Positions 21,748 through 48,900 of a stretch of 64,000 bases of DNA are shown here, piece by piece. This DNA is from Bimastos eiseni. Lineage: Eukaryota > Annelida > Clitellata > Crassiclitellata > Lumbricidae. The notes below the pieces were generated by a model. The model ran no database searches. It was not told where the DNA came from and saw only the letters and a program-made list of their open reading frames with translations. A program made the position numbers and the translations under genes. Location of the stretch: positions 26,125,516 to 26,189,515 of the forward strand of contig OY365806.1 of NCBI GenBank assembly GCA_959347315.1, read 5' to 3'. Each line of letters starts with the position of its first letter. Position 1 is the stretch's first letter.

Positions 21748-21786
21748 GTTTTTTAGTGCCATCTTCCGGTTGGTACCCTGTCTCAT
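21748..21786 (+). other. 5'-UTR part of receptor exon 1
   Basis: An acceptor-like TTTTGTAG ends at 21747, so a non-coding exon may precede. A stop TAG in frame with the coding sequence lies at 21754-21756, so translation cannot start further upstream in this exon. Confidence 0.5.
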
Positions 21787-21919
21787 ATGATGAGTGCACC
21801 TGTAGCACATTGTGAACGTGACCTCTTCTATGATTTAACTGTTCAAAATTGTTTGCCCTGTGCGAATATCTGCGGCCGAAACGGACTCAACAGAGTGGAA
21901 TGCGAAGATAAATGTCCAG
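21787..21919 (+). CDS. Receptor exon 1: BCMA/TACI-like cysteine module
   Basis: Two adjacent ATG codons, then SAPVAHCERDLFYDLTVQNC and the remaining four Cys. Six Cys in the BCMA/TACI spacing within the first 43 residues. Donor GTATGA, one base left over. Confidence 0.85.
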
Positions 21920-24900
21920 GTATGAAACCAAAAGCACTAGTGTAATAAGGAAAGCTTTTTGAAATAATTTGCTATATACAAAGATACAAAGATCTATCAT
22001 AAATACATAGATAATAATAATAATAATGCATACTATTACTGCTGCTATTAATAATAATCATAAGTATAACAATAATAATGTGTTTCTATCCATTTGTGGG
22101 CACATTACTCGTCTAAAGGACGAAGACAGTTGTATTTTGTCATATTGTTATTGGTTAGTTCTGGCACTATATGGCTTCAAAGTGCGCAATGCTTTGCACT
22201 GAACAGGCTTTCTGACTACTTTTTGCCACTGCTTAGAGTTGGCACTGTGGTTGGATGCAAAACTGCATATACAACCATTTAAATTCTCTTGACTTTGAGC
22301 CAGTTGGCAGTGGTTTTAGAACAGACTTAACATCTTGTGAAGCACTTTAGTTTAGGAGACGCCTTAAGACTTTGCTGTTCCCTTGTCCAAGCACAGACGT
22401 CCATTGCTTGGTTACATTACATTTTATAACACAAAATCGTTTTAAGCCTTTGTTGTGGTCTGTTATTTAATTAGTAGCCAGATATTGGCATTCCTGGCCA
22501 GCCTGGGTTGCCATATAATCTTGGTTTCTGGAGATCCAATGCAGACTTCTTCCTACTTCCAATTTGTTGCCATGACAATCCACCATCTTGGCAAGTTTAC
22601 TTATTGAGGAGCCAGACATCTATGAAGACACACTGTTCAGAAATGTTATCTACCTTGCATGGAGATTTTGTCCTTCGGTTAAAAAATAAATTCATAATGT
22701 TGATTTATAATAATAATAATAAATATAAATTATAATAATAGTCATTTTTTTGATTATTGTTATGGTATTAGTTATAATAATAATAGCAAAGAACAATAAT
22801 GATGTTATTATAATTGTTGTAATGATATTAAATGGGTGGTTTCGTAGATTTTGCTGAATATGAGGAACCATCAACGACTGTTGTGTCTCTGGCCTTGACT
22901 CTTGGCCCCATGAAGTCGATCGACATCTGGGTGACCCTGACCGTGTTCTCTGTCATACTGGCAGCTGTGACTGTGATCGTTGTGATGATTATCATTGTGA
23001 AGAGTCGTAAACTTCTTCATCTTGATCGTAAGTAATTGTTCTAAACTTCCAGGAATATGAAATTTTCTTGAATTAATTTATTTAAAATGAAAAAGTGATA
23101 AAGATGGAGAGAAAACTGTTTAATTGCACATATCGTAAATTGAAAATGAGTTATCCAGAGATGAGGTAGTTTGCTATGGTCAAACTGTACAATTTATATA
23201 GCACTACTTCAAGACTCATCAGTGCTGACTGACCTCTTTGATTTTAAATGTAGTTAACCCTACCTAGCTTTATCTTATCTAATTTATTTGATTATTTTAC
23301 TTAAGTTTATCTTACCTTGCAGAATCGAATCAAGGCCTGCTTCCTCGACATGCTGAGGATGGCCTTTCACCAGACAACATTGAGATAATGATTGAACATA
23401 CACAATCAGACATTCCTCAACCACTGACCAGCAACATCATGTCTCTCAACCCTAAGCTTTCCTCAAAGCAATGCAGTTACCCAAACATCCTGTCAAGTCA
23501 CCTTGGCAACCTCAGTGACATGACAGCCCCGATTCCTCGATCACAGACTCAGATCTTCGACGAGAGGGACGATCAAAGAGCACTTTCTCAGATCTCGCTC
23601 AAGAGCGATTCGTCACTGGCTGGCCATGCTTGTGAAGCAGACATTCCTCAAGTTCGAACTTTTTCTGGTAAGTCAAGTTCGTGGGTATCGTGCAATTGTC
23701 TAATAACTGGCTTGCTAAACTGTCAGTTCAGAGACTCAAATCCCTGACAGGGCAGATGCTTAGCATTTGCAGTCAGCTGCAAAATTAGCCTGCTCATTGT
23801 ATACTGTCAGCATGGAGAGAGATCAGACAATGATTGAGAGAACTGGTCTCCTGCCTCTCACAGAATGAGGCTAAAAAGTGAAGTACACCAGACCAATCAG
23901 TTGGGTCAATGCAAATCCATTCTTCTTCTTTTAGTCCTTGTGTTATAAGTTGACCTTATATAAATTCTTGATAAGGTCAGTTAATCTTCCATGTCCTGCA
24001 GTGGAACATAGATTCTTTGTATGCTCGTCATCCCTTGAGCTTGAGATGGTTAGCACAGATATCTTTATCCTGTACATCATATCCAATGTTACTTCCCTAC
24101 CTAACCTAGCATTTATTAATCTAGCTTTCAGTTACATTACCATCTAGCCTTATGTTAGCGTAAAGGCATGGATGACTTCAGTTACACGTGTGCTTATGTT
24201 AGTTATTGTACGTTTATTTAGTTATTATCCTATAACTGTTACTAAAGTTTCACTAAAGCTTCTGTATCGCGTGGTTTATAGGAAACAGTCTGACTAGCGT
24301 CTGTTCTTCCATATACAGCCTCTTTCACATGTTTGGCTGGCTTAATAAGTAAGTGGATTTCAGCTTTTACTTACACTCTATGCATAGGTTTATATTTAAA
24401 TAAATTATTTATATTGTATCTATTTTTTAACATTTTAGTATAAATGCATTGAAGCACACAGGTACAGAATTTGCAGTTTGTAATCTAATTTGAATGTCTG
24501 TATGTTTCTCTCTATCTAACACAACTTGAAGTTAAATCTCCTCTCTGGTTCTCTCGACTGGATATTGTTCTTTACATAGTATCTCTGAGCAATTCATCTG
24601 ACTTAATGCAGCATTCATGAATATGCTATTGCTCTGTGTTGAGCTATTAATTAACAGTTTGGTGGTATTGAATTTAAGGAAACAAATGTTTTTGACACAG
24701 CCAACACTGAAGCATGCATGTGTTTGTATAGTGTTGCATTTATTGTTAAACCACTTCAGTATATTAAATTATTAATAATAGCTCATGAAGACAAATAACT
24801 GTATGCTGTGCTCGACTTTTAAGTAGCTGTTTATAAATTTTTTTATTTTCTGTCCATTTCAGGACTTGTTGGGTGATGGAGTACAGCGAGGACGCGAATG

Positions 24901-26587
24901 GCCTTCGCATTGGAGTTGAGGGCATAGCAAAGGCCATGGCTGAAGACAAAATCCGTCACAAGGGTCAACACCTTCCAAACTTCCATTTTGTAGTGACAAC
25001 AACGCCCACCAGAGGTCGGTTCGTTCCTTGCCCCAATTCGAACCGCCACTCCATGCATCAGAGCTTAACCACAACCCTCAAACCTGGATCTATCATATTC
25101 TCTGATGCCATGGAAATGGATCCAGTTTCGAGAAAGTCTGAGCCCGGCTATGCCACATACAGTGGAGCAGTGAGTGGACTGTGCGTTGGGGCAGACGTGG
25201 GTCTGACGGTGGGACATCTGTACGACAATGTGAATCAGAGGTTCTTTATTGAGAATCGGACGGAAGGGGGATGGTGTCTGCAGAAGTACACTTCAGTGAT
25301 TCACAGGTCCCTTGGACAGGTAACTATATGGGGTCAACGAATTGGGTTTCTTGAGTGGGTTAACTGGCGAATTCACGGATGGACAGATACACTTAAAAGT
25401 TGGCAGATTGGGTGGATAGGACAGTGGGTACATACTATACACTGTGTGGGTGTATTGAAGAGTGGATGTATATTTGCTTGGTTTGGAGGGTGAGTGAATA
25501 TTTGGTTCAATTGTAGAGTGAAATATGGGCAATCAATGATGATGCTATCATTCAGTCATTCATTCATGAGATTTTTATAGCACCTCTTTATGTTAATATA
25601 CAGAAGCATTCCTGAGCCAACCTGGGATAAAAAAGAGACATCCACAAGGCCATTTCTAGCCTGCGAATGAATTGTCACTATTTTAGGCAGAGGTAGTACA
25701 GAAAAGCAATTTTTTCACATTAGGCTGTGATGTGGGGGAATTTCGGTCATGACTTTGCTTTAATTCACTTTAATTTCACTTATAGTGACCTTCTATTTGA
25801 TGTTCTATGAATTGTGAAAACGACAGTAACAGAAGTCAGTAGATCAGAAGCACTGTAGAACGGCTATTTTACATTGAAAACAGAGGGAGCATCGATGTGG
25901 TTGGTTTCAAGCATAGAACTGGATTGGAGTGACATCTGTTCTTGCAAAGTTATGTCCAGACGGCGACCACCACAGAGTTAATGTTACGCTTTTGTGGAGC
26001 ATGTATAGAGGCATATTACTAAGTGTGTTACAGTTATCTGTAGCTTTCTTTTAATAATTTGACTAATGAATAAATGATTGAATGCATGCATGTTTTAGGT
26101 AACCGCCGACCTTGCCTTGCTTCACATGGCGGTTCCAGCCGATAATACAGTTACCATTGGTGGCCGACGGTATCGTTTGAGTCTCTTCAAGGCGGACCTC
26201 AGCCCAAAGTTACCGGTCATTGTCCTCCTAAAAGACGGTTCGTTGAGCGAAGGGATAATCGCAGAGTCGATGTGTACTCTCAAGAAAGACGAGCTCTACA
26301 ACACCCTTCGTATCATCCGAGCCGAGGGTAGACCGGAGAAGATTGCCGGGGAGGGTTACAGTGGGGCATTGGTGCTTTCACGGCCTGTGCCAGAGTCAGG
26401 GTATCAATTGTTTGTCTATGGAATGGTCATTGGTTACTGGGAAAGCGATGAAAAGGATCGATCCCATACTGTGGCAACGCGACTTTGGAACATTCTGGAA
26501 ACTGTTTCTAATTTAGAACATGGAGTTGAGTTCAGTTGGAGGAATGAATTTAAGATGGATTCAGGATATCAAAGTCACCTCATATAA
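21787..26587 (+). CDS. BCMA/TACI-like receptor fused to a trypsin-like peptidase
   Basis: Six exons (21787-21919, 22848-23027, 23323-23667, 24282-24348, 24863-25319, 26099-26587) give 1671 nt and 556 residues with every junction in phase. Residues 9-43 form a cysteine module C-x12-C-x2-C-x3-C-x9-C-x3-C, the spacing of BCMA and TACI (TNFRSF17/13B), with their aromatic-Asp pair (FYD16) but not the full Asp-x-Leu. No signal peptide precedes it, as in type III BCMA. Residues 71-95 are one membrane helix followed by KSRK. Residues 97-241 are a polar Ser-rich linker. From about 335 to 510 a trypsin-like domain shows LTVGH360, TAD398LALL and GYS482GALV, a spacing of 38 and 84 residues as in S1-fold enzymes. 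Predicted topology puts the peptidase in the cytosol, so ligand binding could control proteolysis; that is inference. The alternative is two transcripts, with the peptidase starting at Met247. Confidence 0.8.
21960..22847. other. Receptor intron 1 with LINE-like relic and AAT repeats
   Basis: Around 22330-22400 the plus strand reads FRRRLKTLLFPCPS, like the end of a LINE ORF2. AAT/TAA-rich runs occupy 22010-22080 and 22705-22830. Confidence 0.45.
22848..23027 (+). CDS. Receptor exon 2: stalk and membrane helix
   Basis: The first two bases complete Asp45. Reads FAEYEEPSTTVVSLALTLGP (stalk), then DIWVTLTVFSVILAAVTVIV and VMIIIVKSRKLLHLD: a 25-residue hydrophobic helix with a basic stop-transfer end. 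Donor GTAAGT. Confidence 0.88.
23323..23667 (+). CDS. Receptor exon 3: cytosolic Ser-rich linker
   Basis: 115 codons with no recognised fold, rich in Ser, Pro, Gln and Asp (for example QISLKSDSSLAGH). It begins QSNQGLLPRHAEDGLSPDNI. Such tails usually carry docking or phosphorylation sites; I claim no specific TRAF motif. Acceptor TTGCAG, donor GTAAGT, one base left over. Confidence 0.85.
24282..24348 (+). CDS. Receptor exon 4: short linking exon
   Basis: 67 nt with acceptor TTTATAG and donor GTAAGT. It is needed: exon 3 spliced straight to exon 5 gives a stop after four residues (GLVG), while this exon restores phase and adds NSLTSVCSSIYSLFHMFGWL and NK. The hydrophobic middle is too short for a clear second membrane helix. 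Confidence 0.75.
24863..25319 (+). CDS. Receptor exon 5: peptidase N-terminal half with His
   Basis: Reads TCWVMEYSEDANGLRIGVEG at the start; the peptidase fold is recognisable from YATYSGAVSGLCVGADVGL and LTVGHLYDN, placing His360. Acceptor TTTCAG, donor GTAACT, ends in phase 0. GC content and long open frame stand out against the flanking introns. Confidence 0.88.
25320..26098. other. Receptor intron 5
   Basis: Repeats of GGATGGACAGATA-like GGATGG/GGTGG words at 25375-25495 and a LINE-tail-like TTTTTATAGCACC at 25573-25585; otherwise nothing seen. Confidence 0.4.
26099..26587 (+). CDS. Receptor exon 6: peptidase C-terminal half with Asp and Ser
   Basis: Begins VTADLALLHMAVPADN (Asp398) and contains KIAGEGYSGALVLSRP (Ser482), then LFVYGMVIGYW, the usual strand after the active Ser. 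Ends SGYQSHLI and TAA. Acceptor TTTTAG; the intron splits the domain between His and Asp. Confidence 0.9.
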   Translation, partial: VTADLALLHMAVPADNTVTIGGRRYRLSLFKADLSPKLPVIVLLKDGSLSEGIIAESMCTLKKDELYNTLRIIRAEGRPEKIAGEGYSGALVLSRPVPESGYQLFVYGMVIGYWESDEKDRSHTVATRLWNILETVSNLEHGVEFSWRNEFKMDSGYQSHLI

Positions 26588-36900: not shown

Positions 36901-39900
36901 GGGTACCCGTCGATCCGTGCAGTCAGGAACTCGGCGCGAATATTTTTTTAGGAAATGTAGGGAATTGCGCATTTTTACGGCATGTCATGCACCCAAGAAT
37001 CGATTTCATTGCCCGGGCAGTCAGCCAATATGACCAACGGAATATTTCTGGCATATGTTCGGGTAAAATCGCACAGTTTTACGAAATGTCGTTACCCGAG
37101 AACCGATTTCATTGCCCGGGCAGCCAGCCAATAAGACCAACGGAACATTTCTGTCATATGTTCATGTAAATTAGCACATTTTTACGGAATTTCGGTCACC
37201 CGGAAACCGATTTCATTACCTGGGTAGTCAGCCTCGGGCAGGTACCCGGGTATCCGTTGACAGCCCTAACCATCATAATACAGCATTAATCAGGGGTCGC
37301 TAGAAGACTGTCAAGTATATTAATGTAAGGCAGCATATGGTCAGCAAGGACTAAACTTGGTCAAGTAAGTTTGGGAAAAGGTATTGTACAGTATAAAAAT
37401 AAATGAAAATCAAGTTAAAGTAATATAAACAAGTGTTGGAAAAGTACAAAGTAAATTTGTCAAATAGGTCAAACAAGTCGAGGATGCAGGCGTGAGTATG
37501 GTACAGACAGAAGTAAAGTAGCATAAGGCAAAGTAAGATGCTCAGGCAAAAGAAAGTAATTCAATCAAAAGGAAATCGTGGAAAAGTAGACCTACTGTCA
37601 AGTTAAGATAAGGAAATGAAGGAATTGAAGTTAAAGTGAGACAATGCAAGGTAAAACAAGTTAAGCTAAGGCTGCACAAGTTCAGCTGAGGAACGATGTT
37701 TCCACAGAATTCTGGCAACCTGCTGGGGTCCTTTGGTCTGAAGTCTTCAATGACTTCAACAACTTCTTGGACTCGACTTGCAACAACGACATTGACTCGA
37801 ATGGCGACATAGTTGACTTTGATGTCGTCTGACCAACTGGAATACTACAAAATGATGCGTTAAAGGTAAGTTGCAGTGAAATAAAAGTAAGGTAAATTCA
37901 GGTAATACAAATCAAACTGTTTAATGAATTGCCAATCAATCCTGAGAAAGCAGCACATACAGCCATCTAGGCTTGCTGGTAACAACAAAACAATTCAAAA
38001 GGTCAAACATCTGCTGAGAGCCAGATAGCACTGTTTAAAAAGACGAATTTTTATCTGGATATCAATTTCCACACGTATTAATGCTAGAGTCTACCACTAC
38101 ACCTTGTAAAGTTCTATTTATATACATATCAGTTGCACAAGGCAATATAATATCAGGTTGGAAATTTTTAGATAAAAAAGTAAATGCAGATTAATCCAAT
38201 TATTCTTCCATGATTCGACTTAAACTCAAAATACCAATGACATGCTCAGACAAGTAAGCAGATAATACAATTTCTGAAAGTTAAAACTTGATGATGGAAA
38301 TTATAATACTCAATTCTTCGAATGTAAAGCCAGCAAATATGATGATAGGCATCATGATCCCAATACCATGATGTTAGTTATGATGGAGATAGTGCCAAAA
38401 AATATGATCAATTTGATGATTACAACAGGAGTTTCAGCATCTGAACTGTCACTGCATCAACAGCAACAATCTATTGGGGATAATGACAGATCCTCAGTTA
38501 AAGTCAACGCCCGGAAGCACAAGGCTTTACATGTCACTGGAGTATATGTTATGTCAAAATGTCACAATGCATGGGATCAGAATCAATATCACCCTGACAC
38601 TGTGTACAACTGAAACAATGACAACAATAACAATTGCTCACTGCTCAGCGGTAAATCGAATCATAGCAAGTATAATGATGATGATGACGATAACATCAAT
38701 AATGATGCCTCAGATTATAATAATGACAATGCTAATAACCAGACAATAACTCTGATTAATAACTATACAATAACTCTGATACTGAGGTGTCTGACCGTGG
38801 AGATGGCCTGGTGGACATGCCGTCCATCTTTGACCACTGGTTCGTACTTCTGCAGAAGTCGTCCAGTGTCAATCTTCCAGATTGAGTACGTCGTGTTCTT
38901 TAGATCCTTCTTTTCAATCACAAAATCACCTTTCTGTCATAAGAACCAAAAAATCAATGATAGAAATATCAGGCTAAGCTATGTTCAATTTGCAAAATGA
39001 TGGGACCACATTAGATTTAATTCACAATGTGTTACAATGTATTCACATATGTCACATTCAGTTCATGTTGTGACGTTCAATTTACTTTCTTACAATCAAT
39101 TCACATTACACTCACAATAAGCTATGTTAAATTCTGTTTGTAACATTCGATTCACATAATGCCATGCTAAATTCGAATTCATAAATTAAATAACTATTAT
39201 ATTATTACCATTAATCACCAGTCATTACTTTCAGTTCACAGTCACATTCAATTCACATTGTCCTTCCTCAATGTCAATTCACATAATTAAAATTATGCAC
39301 ATTCAACTAACATTAAGTTACATCACACTCATGTTACATTCAATTCACAGTACATTCCTTTTATTAAACATATATAGTGTTCAACCAATTTGAACTACAA
39401 AGTCTGTCTAAATAAATTTACTGCAAGGCTGAATGATTGATTTAGTGACAGACGGATGTATTTACAAAAGATTGCAATCGATCAATTCTTTCATTGTACA
39501 CAGAAAAATAAATACAGGGAATGATACAGAATAATCATCAAAAGTTTAAAACTATCAGATCACATAACTGGTATATTATAATTGAGGGAGACAGTTGGAT
39601 GGACAGAGGTCTGGCTAAATTACTGATACATTAAGTGAATTGAAATTTATTCCAATCCTAACTTATATGAATTAAATTTATTCTAATCATAACTTATATA
39701 TCACTAAATGAAACAGTGAATAAACATATAAAAGAATTAAGAATTCATAAACAAAATGAACATAACCCGGATTGAAATACAATCTCATCTACTCGAACCT
39801 AATCACACCTTCTGTTCGGTCATTTTAATCACTGACCAAATGAAAGAATGCTGGACGACAGAAAAGTTAAACCAATGAATGCACGATGACTTTGATAGCA

Positions 39901-42900: not shown

Positions 42901-45900
42901 TTCCTGGCTTTGATGTTGGACTTTAGCATGAACATTGACTTCCATCAATTGATACCATGAGCATCATAATAGTGGTGCTTGAGAGTGGTCCTCAAATAAT
43001 TTGTTAATCTTTATGTTTTGTCATCGATACCTCTGCTGGCTTCCATGCGGGGTCTTTGTCTGAGTCATAGTCATCCTCGTTGCTTCGAACAACACGTCGA
43101 CCTCGTGCAACAGTTGCCGTCTTCACATCCTCATCACTTGAATCGTCACTGTCTGAAAAAGAAAACAACACATTCACTTGACAATCCTAATCCATCGATC
43201 GATATATGTTACAGAAATACCCCACATATTTACTGAGATTTTGTCATTTAAACATCATGACCAGCAAATATTAATTCTGCAAATATTTAAATTTTCAGTG
43301 GTAACCATCATCTCAGGAAGGACCATCACCCAATACTTATCACTAACCTATTCAACATTCAAAGAGATGTTCTTTAACAATTTAACGACCAGCTGCATTG
43401 GCTTCCCAGTCACATTTATTACACTTTTGTCATCAAAGTAACTAAAGATATTCACACACAAACATACATACAGGTAATACATACATACACAAACAAACAT
43501 ATAGACACACACCTACTGGCACATACACACATATGCAAACATATACATACATATGAATTCATGCAAAAACCCACATATGCAAATACCTACATATAAATAA
43601 ATGCATAAATACATACAAAAGTACATACCTCCATACATACATATATATTTAGAAATAAAATATGAAATGTAACCCTAACCAGTTGCTGTAAACTTAATAC
43701 ATGAAATGGTAACCATGCCAGCAGTTACCCTTTCAAAATCTGTAGATAAATAAATAAATAAACATACAATTAATTGTTTCTCTAATTTTTATGAGCACTG
43801 AGCATAATACTGGTGCAAATAAAAATGATTTTGAACGTTTCTCAAAGAGTGGCATATAGAATCGACTCATTGGAAGCCATAAACATTATATATGTTTAGA
43901 AGGTCTACATAGTGAAGCAAATTATTAGGATTGCCAGAATAGAAATAAATCTACAAACGATAAATAATTAATGTACACAATACAAAATAAATTATTATTA
44001 TTATTCAAACAACACATAGAGTCCCTTACTTATTCTGTGTTTCCTTTGTTCCTCTACAACCGTCTTGGCCTTCCGCATTGGCTGTGGTCTCACTGGTATA
44101 GCATTTGGCCGTTCCCTTGCAGGAACCACTGGTGCAGGAACCACCACTGACCTTTTGACTTGTTCAGTCGACTTCACAGCAACAACCGAATCCAAGATCT
44201 TAACACCGACGACGACACCAGGCGTTGGTTTTGGCAAGTTCTTCAGGTCTGGAGGAGTCAATTGTTTTTCCTTTCCAGGGCTCTCTGTGGGTTTCTTTAC
44301 ATCCCCCTCTGTCCGTCGCGGCCGGGTGTCTGGGATGTACTTTGGGAGGATGGGCCGATTGGCAACAGCTGCGCTCGAAACGCTTGACAGGGTTTCTGGT
44401 TTCTTGCCGCTAAGAAAGTTGACGAACGAGTCAAGGAAATTGCCCTTTGTGATCGGTGTTGCCAGTTCCTGCTTTATGGGTTTCACTGGTGTCGTGTGTT
44501 TGCTTCGTTCATCGTCTATGACTGGACCTTGTGCAAGATGCGTAAATTCCTCGTCGATGACTGGAGGTGGAGGCGGATCACTCCGCTGCTTCATCGCCAG
44601 TTCATAGTCCGTGCCATCGGTGTACGACGCTTGCTCCTGGACGCCAGGGAAGTTTTCAACTGCATCTTCCTTCATTAGAAGCTCATTGGGGTTGATGAAG
44701 CTGTTCCCACACAGGTTCGTGAGAAAGACCTGCGTCTCCTGCGTTGGTTTGCTCGGTCCATAGGGGTAGATGTCAGAGCTATGTAGAAGTGTACTTGACA
44801 GGTGGACATCAGGTGAAATGCCGTGGGTGAAGACTGCTGAGCCGAGCGCACTCACAGTGCCACCAGGAGCAGCCATCAACTGTGGCATGTATCTATCGAC
44901 ACTCTCAAAGACGACACGTTCTGTGGAGCCTCCTCCATCCATCATCTCCTTCCCACCAGGTCCAAACTGGTCTCTTCCCTCCGATGATTTGCGCACCTTT
45001 GAGGGGGGCCGCACGCGCCTTCCGTCGGACGCCCCCATCCCCTCCGTCATCATGTCATCCTCGCCTGGGTATCCTCCATCAAAACCCTGTGAAGCACGAC
45101 CAGAACGAGCCGCTTTTGGCATCCGAGTATTGCGTGCAGCTGACTTCTTTGGTTTTGTGGTTGAGTCAGCAACTGCCTGCACTGTCAGAATACTAGCAAC
45201 AGATGCCTGTGCGGCAGACGAACAGCCAAGCAATCCACCAAGTCCGAACGAGTCTTCTCGATCCGGGTTTCTACCGCAGAGAACCCCACCCGCTGGGCTG
45301 AGGACTCGTGCCGCCATCGCACCGGCAGGATATCCCTTTGACATGCCATACTCGTTGTAAGAGGTAAGCATTGGATTTGTGCTAGCGACAAGCGCTCCGT
45401 AGCTGGTCGTCTGTCCTCGCGAGTCGATCGCAGCGAGCTCCACCTGAGGCTGGAACATTGTTCGAGGCTTCCCAGAGACAGGAAACCCAGTCGATGGAAA
45501 TGCCGATGGTGAGCATCCGCCGAACGATGGTCCCTGACCTATGACAGATCCAGAAGTGTCATCGCTCGACATGACATCGTTCAGGTCCATCTGAAGGGAT
45601 GAGTCGATATACCTCTGCTCGGCCGTCACTGTTGGAGTCATCGTCTGGGAGCTCCGGCCAGGGAAGAAGCGCTGTGCCTCAAAGCGCTGCGAGTTGGCGT
45701 GGGCCGTCGGTGGCGACGAAGCCATGGCGGCGCGGCTCGTCTGACTCATAGCATAGTCAGGCTTCGACTGTTGAGCGATCGAAGGTGTTTCATGGTAACA
45801 GCGCGACTTGCTGGATGCAACCAGCATGGGGCGCGATCCTGAGTGGGCAGGAGGAGGATCCTTCTTAGCAATTCCTGTTGAAGATGGCTGCATTCCCAGG

Positions 45901-48900
45901 AATGGGCCAACTCCTGCTGCAGTCGACATAAAGCCAGACCTCGACCAGAAGTCGGCAGCAGCCACTGCCGCATCGCTGGCTGAGGCAAGGCCCTGTATGG
46001 AGGAGTCATTCATCATGTGTGGGTCGGTGTTGAAGAGGGCCGAGGACGACGATGACGAAGACCGGGGCGGTTGGGATGATATAACGGATGCCAGGCGGGA
46101 CATAGTGTCGACGTGGGATCCGCTGACTGCTTCGAGGGAGTACAGAGCTGCTTGCCCCATTGTGGGCCGGTAGGATGACTGGTTTGAGAATCCCGATGGG
46201 GGAAAACCCTCAAACAATGGGTTCATAGAACCATGAAAGGTGCCGTAATTGACAGGGTGGGTCATGCTCGTCAGACGAGCAGGGGGCAGTGGGGCTGCAT
46301 GGGCGGGAAGGGGATTCGCTAGGCCCCCTCCCAAACCTAAGAAACACAAGAGCAATGTGGTTAGCACACAGAGTATTTGAATGCCTCTATTAGAATACAA
46401 CGGCAAAAAGTAGCAATAATAATGCATACATGACATGTATTAGGTACATGTATGTACGTATGGGTGTTTGTATGTAAATAATAACAGCTGAACTTCAAGA
46501 CTTCTAAAATTCTGAAAAAATGAGGATAGCAGAAGAACACATCACCTATTAGCATTCAGTACTTTAATGCATTCAGTTAAAAATGAAATTTGACAAAAAT
46601 ATATCTTGCTAACAGCATGATGAAAATGCTAGACAAATTACATCAGTAGCACGTACCAATATATATTAGAGAGAACTATCTGAGTTTTAGGTAAGCTATA
46701 ATTTTGATTACATTATTACTATTTATTAAATGGACAATTTCTAGAGCACCGCAACGCAGCCATGTCGCTACAAGGGTTCTTAAACATTGATCACTAACAA
46801 GACAGACTATAGATAGATATGTTTCTTTTTACATGTCCCTCATTCGATTTCATTAGCTGATTAACGGCACGATGTCCAACAGCATAACTGCGTCCAAGTC
46901 AAGTTACTAGGCATTACTAGGCAAACATGCCATCGTTTATTCTTACCTACATTTCTAACCCTCAAATAATGCCTTCTCATTTGAAAGTATCAGAGAAAAC
47001 AAATGTGTTAATTCAAATATGTCATAACTGGACTGACAATATTAAAGAAAGAAGTTTATACACACTCATACACTCTGGTACCCAGCCACTATGGCTAAGA
47101 TCTTTTCTTAGTTAGCTCTCCTTTTATGTGATCCAAGGGCCCTCTACGTCTCGCTGGGCCCTCGCAGCTCATGGTCTTCCCCAGGGCTCCGTCTTGGGCC
47201 CCTCCAGTTCATAATCTATACCTCTGACCTCGACTCTCTTCTTTCCTCCCACAGTATGGTCGCCCAGCTGTACGCAAACGATGTGCAAGCCTGCCAACTC
47301 CGCCTCGCCTAGAGCACCGTTGCGACCGTCCAGGATATGAGCTGGGCCATGGCGGCCTTAGGGATCTGGATGTCATCCAACCAGCTATGCCTTAACTCCC
47401 TAAAAACTCAGTCGACAGCTGGCTAAGTTAGATATGGCTGCCTCTGCTACCATCTTTCCCCATTTTTGTTTTAGCCTCCGCTGTCCATGACCTTGCCTTA
47501 GTGCTCGGGGCTCACGCTCTCTCCGCTTGGTTGAACTAGGTCTCATTTATGTTCCACATGCATGCACCGCCACCAGGCACAGCCGTGCATTCTCAATGGC
47601 AGGCCCCTCGATTTGGAATGGCCTCCCTTTGACGCTCTGCTCCCTTCCTTGAACCCCCTATCAGGCATTCTTCTCTCTTTGTAAGATGACTTTATTTGGC
47701 CGTGCTGGGGTTGGAAGCGCCTCTGCTTAATCACCTTGAAGAGGTGCCATACATAAATTATTTTAATGAATGAATTCTCTTAATAAATTGAATGAACAAA
47801 AAAATGCAGCATTCACTCAGTTATCGAATATCTTGTTTCTATTATTAATCATAAATACAGGACAGTACTATCAGAAAAAACCAATTAATAATATGGCACT
47901 CTTCAAGTAAATCTTATGGCCTTGATGTTGCTGCTAGTGACATGCCTGTAACCTCAGAAAGAAACTTAATACTTTTAAATAATTGTGTTGCAGCCTTTAA
48001 GCTGTCATACAAGTTTCAGTCCAAACAGACATGATTTGTGATTATGAGCTCTCACATGGCATCTGAAAATTATGATGATGCTTAGATGTTTCACACAGAG
48101 CAGAACTATAGGGTGACATGATTGCTGGTGCCAATACAAAATTCCACACAAGTAATTATGGCATAACCGAGTAGACAATCTCCACCGAGTACCGAATCCG
48201 AATATTTGGATGCACTATTTGCCGGATCTGGGTACGAACCAAATAGTAGTCGGCACTCTAGCCCGGCGAGTACCTTAGCAGGCAAAGCTCGACTTTTGTT
48301 ACTTTTGCATAATGCAAATTAGCAAAACAAATGTTTATGCCTGTAATAATAACTAAACACTTAAAGTCGCATGGCTCTAAATTCTTAATTTTCCTCTTTA
48401 GAATGTTAAATGTTTATAAAAAAATTATTGAATTAAGAAATTTTATTTTTTACTACTTGTGTGTCTAATATTTGCCGAGGCAAATATTACTGAACAGTCC
48501 CAAAAAACAGGATATTCGGCCAAGGTGAATGTCCTAGGCGAATGTCTGAGGCGATTTCCGGTTATGCCTTACAAGTAGCTGCTATCCTTCAGAAAAAAAG
48601 AATCCACAACTTTTAACAATCAGTGACAGCAAAGCTAATGATAGGTCAGTAAGTAAAAAATGAGCAAGTAACTACCTTATAAAGTGACTGAATAACTACT
48701 AACTTTTCTTGCATAACTATGCAATAATGACAATTTAAATGTAACCGTACTTGATTGAATACGACTGTCATTGCATGACCATTCTTGAGTGAGTGATTAC
48801 CAATAAGTGAGTGTAAAATAGTAACTGGGTAAGCAAATACTGACTTTTAGAGTGACTGAGTCAGCAAATTAGCAAACGAGTGACTGATTGAAGAGAGATT

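Follow-up and report, generated by a model that had tools for sequence, protein, structure and literature searches.

Bimastos eiseni contig OY365806.1 (assembly GCA_959347315.1) carries, in the 64,000 nucleotides analysed here (positions 26,125,516 to 26,189,515 of the forward strand; hereafter the window), a gene of six exons whose predicted product combines a receptor module with a protease. We favour, with moderate confidence, the explanation that it is a type III single-pass member of the TNF receptor (TNFR) superfamily that belongs with BCMA and TACI, has a NAL1-like PA-clan serine protease as its cytosolic half and would signal by proteolysis when clustered by its ligand. An initial annotation, made from the sequence, had proposed such a receptor and is partly supported: sequence comparison and structure prediction support the order of the domains, which three receptors share, together with the catalytic triad and the peptidase fold, and ligand binding may activate the protease.

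Gene structure and full-length relatives

Rebuilding the six exons from the DNA confirmed the gene model initially described, with GT-AG boundaries throughout and consistent splice phases (1, 1, 1, 2, 0) yielding 556 residues and a stop codon. Exon 1 (21787..21919, +) starts at Met 21787 or 21790, downstream of an in-frame stop at 21754, encodes a six-cysteine module with no hydrophobic signal and ends at a GT donor at 21920 (99.1 percentile). Exon 2 (22848..23027, +) encodes the stalk, the membrane helix and the basic inner flank KSRK, and exon 3 (23323..23667, +) the cytosolic linker with the conserved motif [QP]ISL[KN]SD. The peptidase module begins in exon 4 (24282..24348, +; 67 bases), which encodes HMFGWLNK; exon 5 (24863..25319, +) holds its N-terminal part with the catalytic His, as judged also from homologues, and exon 6 (26099..26587, +) the catalytic Asp and Ser, the C-terminal tail and the stop. 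Scored with hand-set weights, the donors lie at percentiles 95.4-99.8 among the 3,585 GTs of the window and the acceptors of exons 3, 4 and 5 at 96.5, 91.1 and 99.7 among its 3,908 AGs, those of exons 2 and 6 being weaker (61.1 and 71.6). The whole fusion claim depended on the 67-base exon 4, since the frame is broken when exon 3 is joined directly to exon 5. The nearest poly(A) signal (AATAAA or ATTAAA) lies about 2 kb 3' of the stop codon.

The fusion is found again in two full-length relatives. Three protein searches were made, each of which scored its 8,000 best candidates. The first, with the window model against some 5.8 billion proteins, retrieved P0001 (561 residues; E 2e-111), which is 41% identical over 99% and is encoded on a single contig of 2,732 bases, together with two shorter relatives. 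A profile of the peptidase half retrieved 31 proteins including a second full-length receptor, P0004 (566 residues, three contigs). The reading frames of P0001 and P0004 are continuous across all five junctions of the window gene: the region of the exon 1/2 join reads KC[PQ]D[FY] in both, and the exon 4 stretch is HMFGWLNK in P0001 and, with one change, HMVGWLNK in P0004, MFGWLN being present in P0002. The contigs carry the source tag lgn, which we take to mean Logan assemblies; where one holds the entire protein and lacks the five introns, a spliced transcript is the simplest reading. With about 70% identity between them, P0001 and P0004 are not fully independent witnesses. The third search, with a 10-sequence alignment headed by the full-length receptors, returned P0004, P0001 and P0006 only, and no additional full-length receptor among the candidates scored, so the architecture is seen in three proteins, the window's included. 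These two relatives support the proposed order of a cysteine module, one membrane helix and a cytosolic trypsin-fold peptidase, the last being backed also by structure prediction.

The receptor half

Residues 9-43 (21811..21915, +) form the cysteine module. Its six cysteines are kept in all three receptors with the identical spacing C-x12-C-x2-C-x3-C-x9-C-x3-C. A search of PDB sequences with the single sequence found TACI at E 0.009; a three-sequence profile gave 22 matches there at E up to 10, headed by two of TACI (E 3.5e-4 and 6.1e-4), the others being ten of BCMA (E 0.23-1.7) and ten unrelated (E 0.57-3.3). The Pfam family PF09305 (TACI-CRD2) matches two of the 29 members of alignment A4 at E up to 1 (best 0.00092). 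Profile and cysteine layout thus agree with the BCMA/TACI-type assignment first made, which would hold for the three receptors.

The single membrane helix annotated initially is predicted by hydropathy. Its core spans residues 77-95 (22943..22999, +), with a hydropathy of 3.29 over 19 residues, against 2.42 in P0001 and 2.39 in P0004; every receptor has a single strong helix of this kind, with KSRK or KIRK behind it. None of the three has an N-terminal hydrophobic signal, as judged by hydropathy with no dedicated predictor. BCMA and TACI are type III proteins, lacking a signal peptide and crossing the membrane by one helix. The same topology is predicted for the three receptors, and this plan, with its basic inner flank, would place the peptidase in the cytosol.

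Linker and C-terminal tail

The linker motif [QP]ISL[KN]SD is kept in the three receptors, none of which has a TRAF2-type motif in the linker scanned. In the model of P0001 built with AlphaFold 2 (AF2), the linker (residues 105-234) has a predicted local distance difference test score (pLDDT) below 50. At the other end of the protein, DSGYQS (26558..26575, +) is a possible phosphodegron. Of 32 sequences, 30 have the pattern [DE]SG[YF] beginning within their final 11 residues, and in 28 a Ser or Thr stands two or three positions past it. DSGxxS is the degron recognised by beta-TrCP; the window tail fits this pattern and the tails of P0004 and P0006 (DSGF[ND]AYS) do not.

The peptidase half

The catalytic residues were found exactly where they had been placed: His360 in TVGHL (codon 25215..25217, +), Asp398 in TADLAL (codon 26108..26110, +) and Ser482, which follows Tyr481 in GYSG (26357..26362, +). 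His, Asp and Ser occur in this order with GxSG in 30 of the 32 sequences, that is, in every one reaching the sites. Structure prediction, with P0001 as the protein modelled, assigns to the module the trypsin-like double beta-barrel fold of PA-clan peptidases and, its N-terminal part included, the overall fold of the NAL1 family.

The trypsin-like character claimed at the outset holds for the predicted fold and finds no counterpart in sequence profiles, none of which names a trypsin family; an outcome initially listed as refuting the proposal, the lack of a trypsin-fold match in profile searches, has thus come about by half. No peptidase was named when the protease was searched against Pfam, NCBIfam, PHROGs, PADLOC and PDB sequences. 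The seven Pfam families matched by the 29 aligned members at E up to 1 include neither a peptidase family nor a caspase, and the 29-sequence profile has no match among PDB sequences at E up to 10. Two PHROGs of unknown function give weak matches, phrog_36680 to seven of the 29 members (best E 0.0022) and phrog_37923 to ten (best E 0.017). Against E. coli DegQ and DegS, hhalign covered the Asp motif only, with a probability below 3%; against a trypsin open reading frame of the same genome (L023) it gave two local alignments, at the GDSG and Asp motifs, also below 3%. Among 68 pattern matches in viral contigs there is no relative.

Counter-evidence and alternative explanations

Several observations weigh against the favoured reading. 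The first group concerns the cysteine module. The scores for PF09305 stay under its cut-off (14.4-16.9 versus 22.9 bits). When the whole genome was scanned in six frames, the window's cysteine exon ranked seventh of 14 matches with E 3.1, none being above cut-off; since the single exon falls short, it is the profile of the three sequences and the conserved layout that carry the module call. AF2 models residues 1-50 of P0001 with pLDDT 30-66 and places a helix starting at residue 34, so that the module is not convincingly built. DxL, the ligand-contact motif of BCMA and TACI, is not conserved, reading D-L-T in the window protein and D-E-S in P0001 and P0004. With DxL not conserved and the PF09305 score below threshold, the module might no longer bind a TNF-family ligand and might serve another recognition role. 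We consider this unlikely, given that the six cysteines and the pattern around them fit TACI and BCMA best and that the genome has TNF-domain genes.

A second group concerns the joining of the halves and the linker. Among the 31 proteins from the peptidase-half search, the receptor half is present in P0001 and P0004 only. P0006 and P0026 have predicted starts at the Met equivalent to Met247, and P0002 at MKMFGWLN. These three starts fall within the peptidase or immediately ahead of it, and a form lacking the receptor may therefore exist. In addition, the linker of P0004, and of no other receptor, has a TRAF6-like motif (PVESEE). The existence of entries lacking the receptor half, and a linker that is long, modelled with low confidence in P0001 and probably disordered, would also suit a protease that is constitutively active. 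Its anchor would restrain it near its substrate, shedding or linker cleavage would free it, and the ligand would govern release or endocytosis rather than catalysis. We regard this, too, as a minor possibility.

P0003-type proteins have [YC]S[QR] two residues ahead of a conserved Trp (13 of the 32 sequences). This fits a frame that reads back through an acceptor at the place and in the phase of intron 4, so the short entries are probably exon fragments; the upstream exons of P0003-type proteins might likewise encode receptors.

The window protein has Tyr where the Asp of GDSG stands in the 29 other sequences reaching the site, as would be expected if the peptidase were a pseudo-enzyme acting as a ligand-regulated scaffold; that is distinctly improbable, however, with His, Asp and Ser kept in all sequences that reach the sites and GDSG in 29 of these 30. 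Least probable is a pair of adjacent genes, the first for a short TACI-like receptor that stops after exon 3 and the second for a cytosolic protease from about Met247. The predicted starts of P0006, P0026 and P0002 and the scarcity of the receptor half would suit it, but P0001 and P0004, as single reading frames across all junctions, speak against it, as do the short entries if they are exon fragments.

Proposed mechanism

In the receptor-protease that we favour, a trimeric TNF-family ligand would cluster three receptors from outside. The three peptidase domains would thereby be assembled or crowded, and cutting would be switched on or aimed. The target could be a cytosolic substrate or the receptor's own linker, whose cleavage would free the protease. 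The signal would be proteolysis itself, with no TRAF or death-domain adaptors, and might be ended through the conserved [DE]SG[YF] tail by phosphorylation-dependent degradation.

TNF-family ligands are trimers, NAL1 forms trimer-based assemblies, and a DegP trimer is named in structure 8f0a. A protease tail resembling the trimer-based NAL1 and HtrA enzymes would therefore be a natural partner for a ligand-assembled trimer. This pairing is the most attractive step of the mechanism and the least proven. We tentatively extend it to a class of enzyme-linked receptors, somewhat doubtful as yet, in which a TNF-family trimer would directly assemble a trimeric NAL1/HtrA-like serine protease, the geometry would set the state of the protease and a degron would be built in. 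TNF receptors are viewed as recruiters of adaptors; one that is itself a serine protease would reduce the route between cytokine and proteolysis to a single molecule. Such a receptor would also link an animal peptidase family unseen by Pfam to the fold of a plant growth regulator and offer a compact system for asking whether oligomerisation controls cytosolic trypsin-fold enzymes.

Comparison with known systems

To our knowledge, TNF receptors normally signal through death domains or TRAF-docking tails and carry no enzyme, TACI and BCMA using TRAF-docking tails. Vertebrate TACI and BCMA (TNFRSF13B and TNFRSF17) share with the window protein the cysteine pattern, the single membrane helix and the lack of a signal peptide, and differ by the DxL motif.

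The initial statement that no such receptor is described was too strong as regards the joining of receptor and protease. Amphioxus has transmembrane TNFR-caspase proteins, supported by cDNA, with the TNFR module outside and the protease inside, for which a shortcut from signal to cell death was suggested (PMC2575513). That precedent makes the receptor-plus-protease logic already known. The amphioxus enzyme is, as there described, a caspase and hence a cysteine protease, whereas here a PA-clan serine protease is predicted beside a single BCMA/TACI-type module, with trypsin as the predicted fold and no caspase domain among the Pfam matches. As far as searched, the serine-protease class and the BCMA/TACI receptor type are new; a receptor with a serine protease tail was absent from the titles and abstract openings covered, which include little subscription literature.

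Drosophila Grindelwald is likewise a protostome TNFR with a single cysteine-rich module, whose topology is like those of Fn14, BCMA and the second module of TACI; its tail has Veli- and Traf2-binding parts, and the accessible sections of the report mention no protease (PMC8024323). Bacterial systems with Death-like adaptors, as far as their description is accessible, also use a trypsin-like peptidase as an effector of immunity or cell death, but are bacterial and not built on a TNF-type receptor. On the protease side, rice NAL1 (NARROW LEAF 1) is a plant protein with 14% identity and no sequence-level match by profile. It is not known to have a receptor half. HtrA and DegS proteases have no receptor module either, and their structures are less similar than that of NAL1 to the peptidase model.

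Related loci and other observations

Scans of the organism's own genome covered 660 Mb in 118 contigs. The window query had suggested a single-copy gene, which was overturned when a P0003 query found two divergent peptidase relatives besides the window gene: C5:43317803-43318012 (-), with E 6.7e-5 and GQSGALV, and C17:4357860-4358525 (-) (L032), with E 3.1e-4 and a 439-residue open frame containing TVRHF, TADIA and GDSG. In the roughly 9.5 kb upstream of each, a coarse motif scan found no cysteine module. A second BCMA-like single-module exon without a signal peptide (L010, L033) lies at C2:22245111-22245197 (-). A frame with a membrane helix follows it by 0.5-0.7 kb, and a coarse motif scan of 20 kb found no peptidase motif beyond the unspecific string YSG. 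The genome therefore appears, from these sequence features, to hold a BCMA-like receptor with an ordinary tail as well as one with a peptidase. Long introns or short exons could conceal further parts at these loci.

Seven TNF-domain matches above cut-off are present in the genome. Three TNF-domain matches at C10:24161578-24177315 (+), spaced 7-8 kb apart, may be ligand-like genes clustered in tandem. An open frame of 340 residues at C4:43940819-43941271 (+) (L024), containing a trypsin-like domain, might be a further cytosolic protein of trypsin fold. COX1 of contig C118, taken as mitochondrial, translates well if AGA and AGG are read as Ser and AAA as Lys, an argument against echinoderms and vertebrates; its protein sequence looks lophotrochozoan. 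Outside this contig there are 34 COX1-like matches on C15, C16, C4, C5, C6 and others, 31 of them above cut-off and six covering nearly the full profile; they are nuclear copies of mitochondrial DNA or assembly errors. Elsewhere in the window, positions 44004-46439 (-) form a stop-to-stop open frame of 812 residues with no Pfam match at E 0.01, and a 103-base tandem repeat (2.4 copies, 84% matches) occupies positions 36990-37233.
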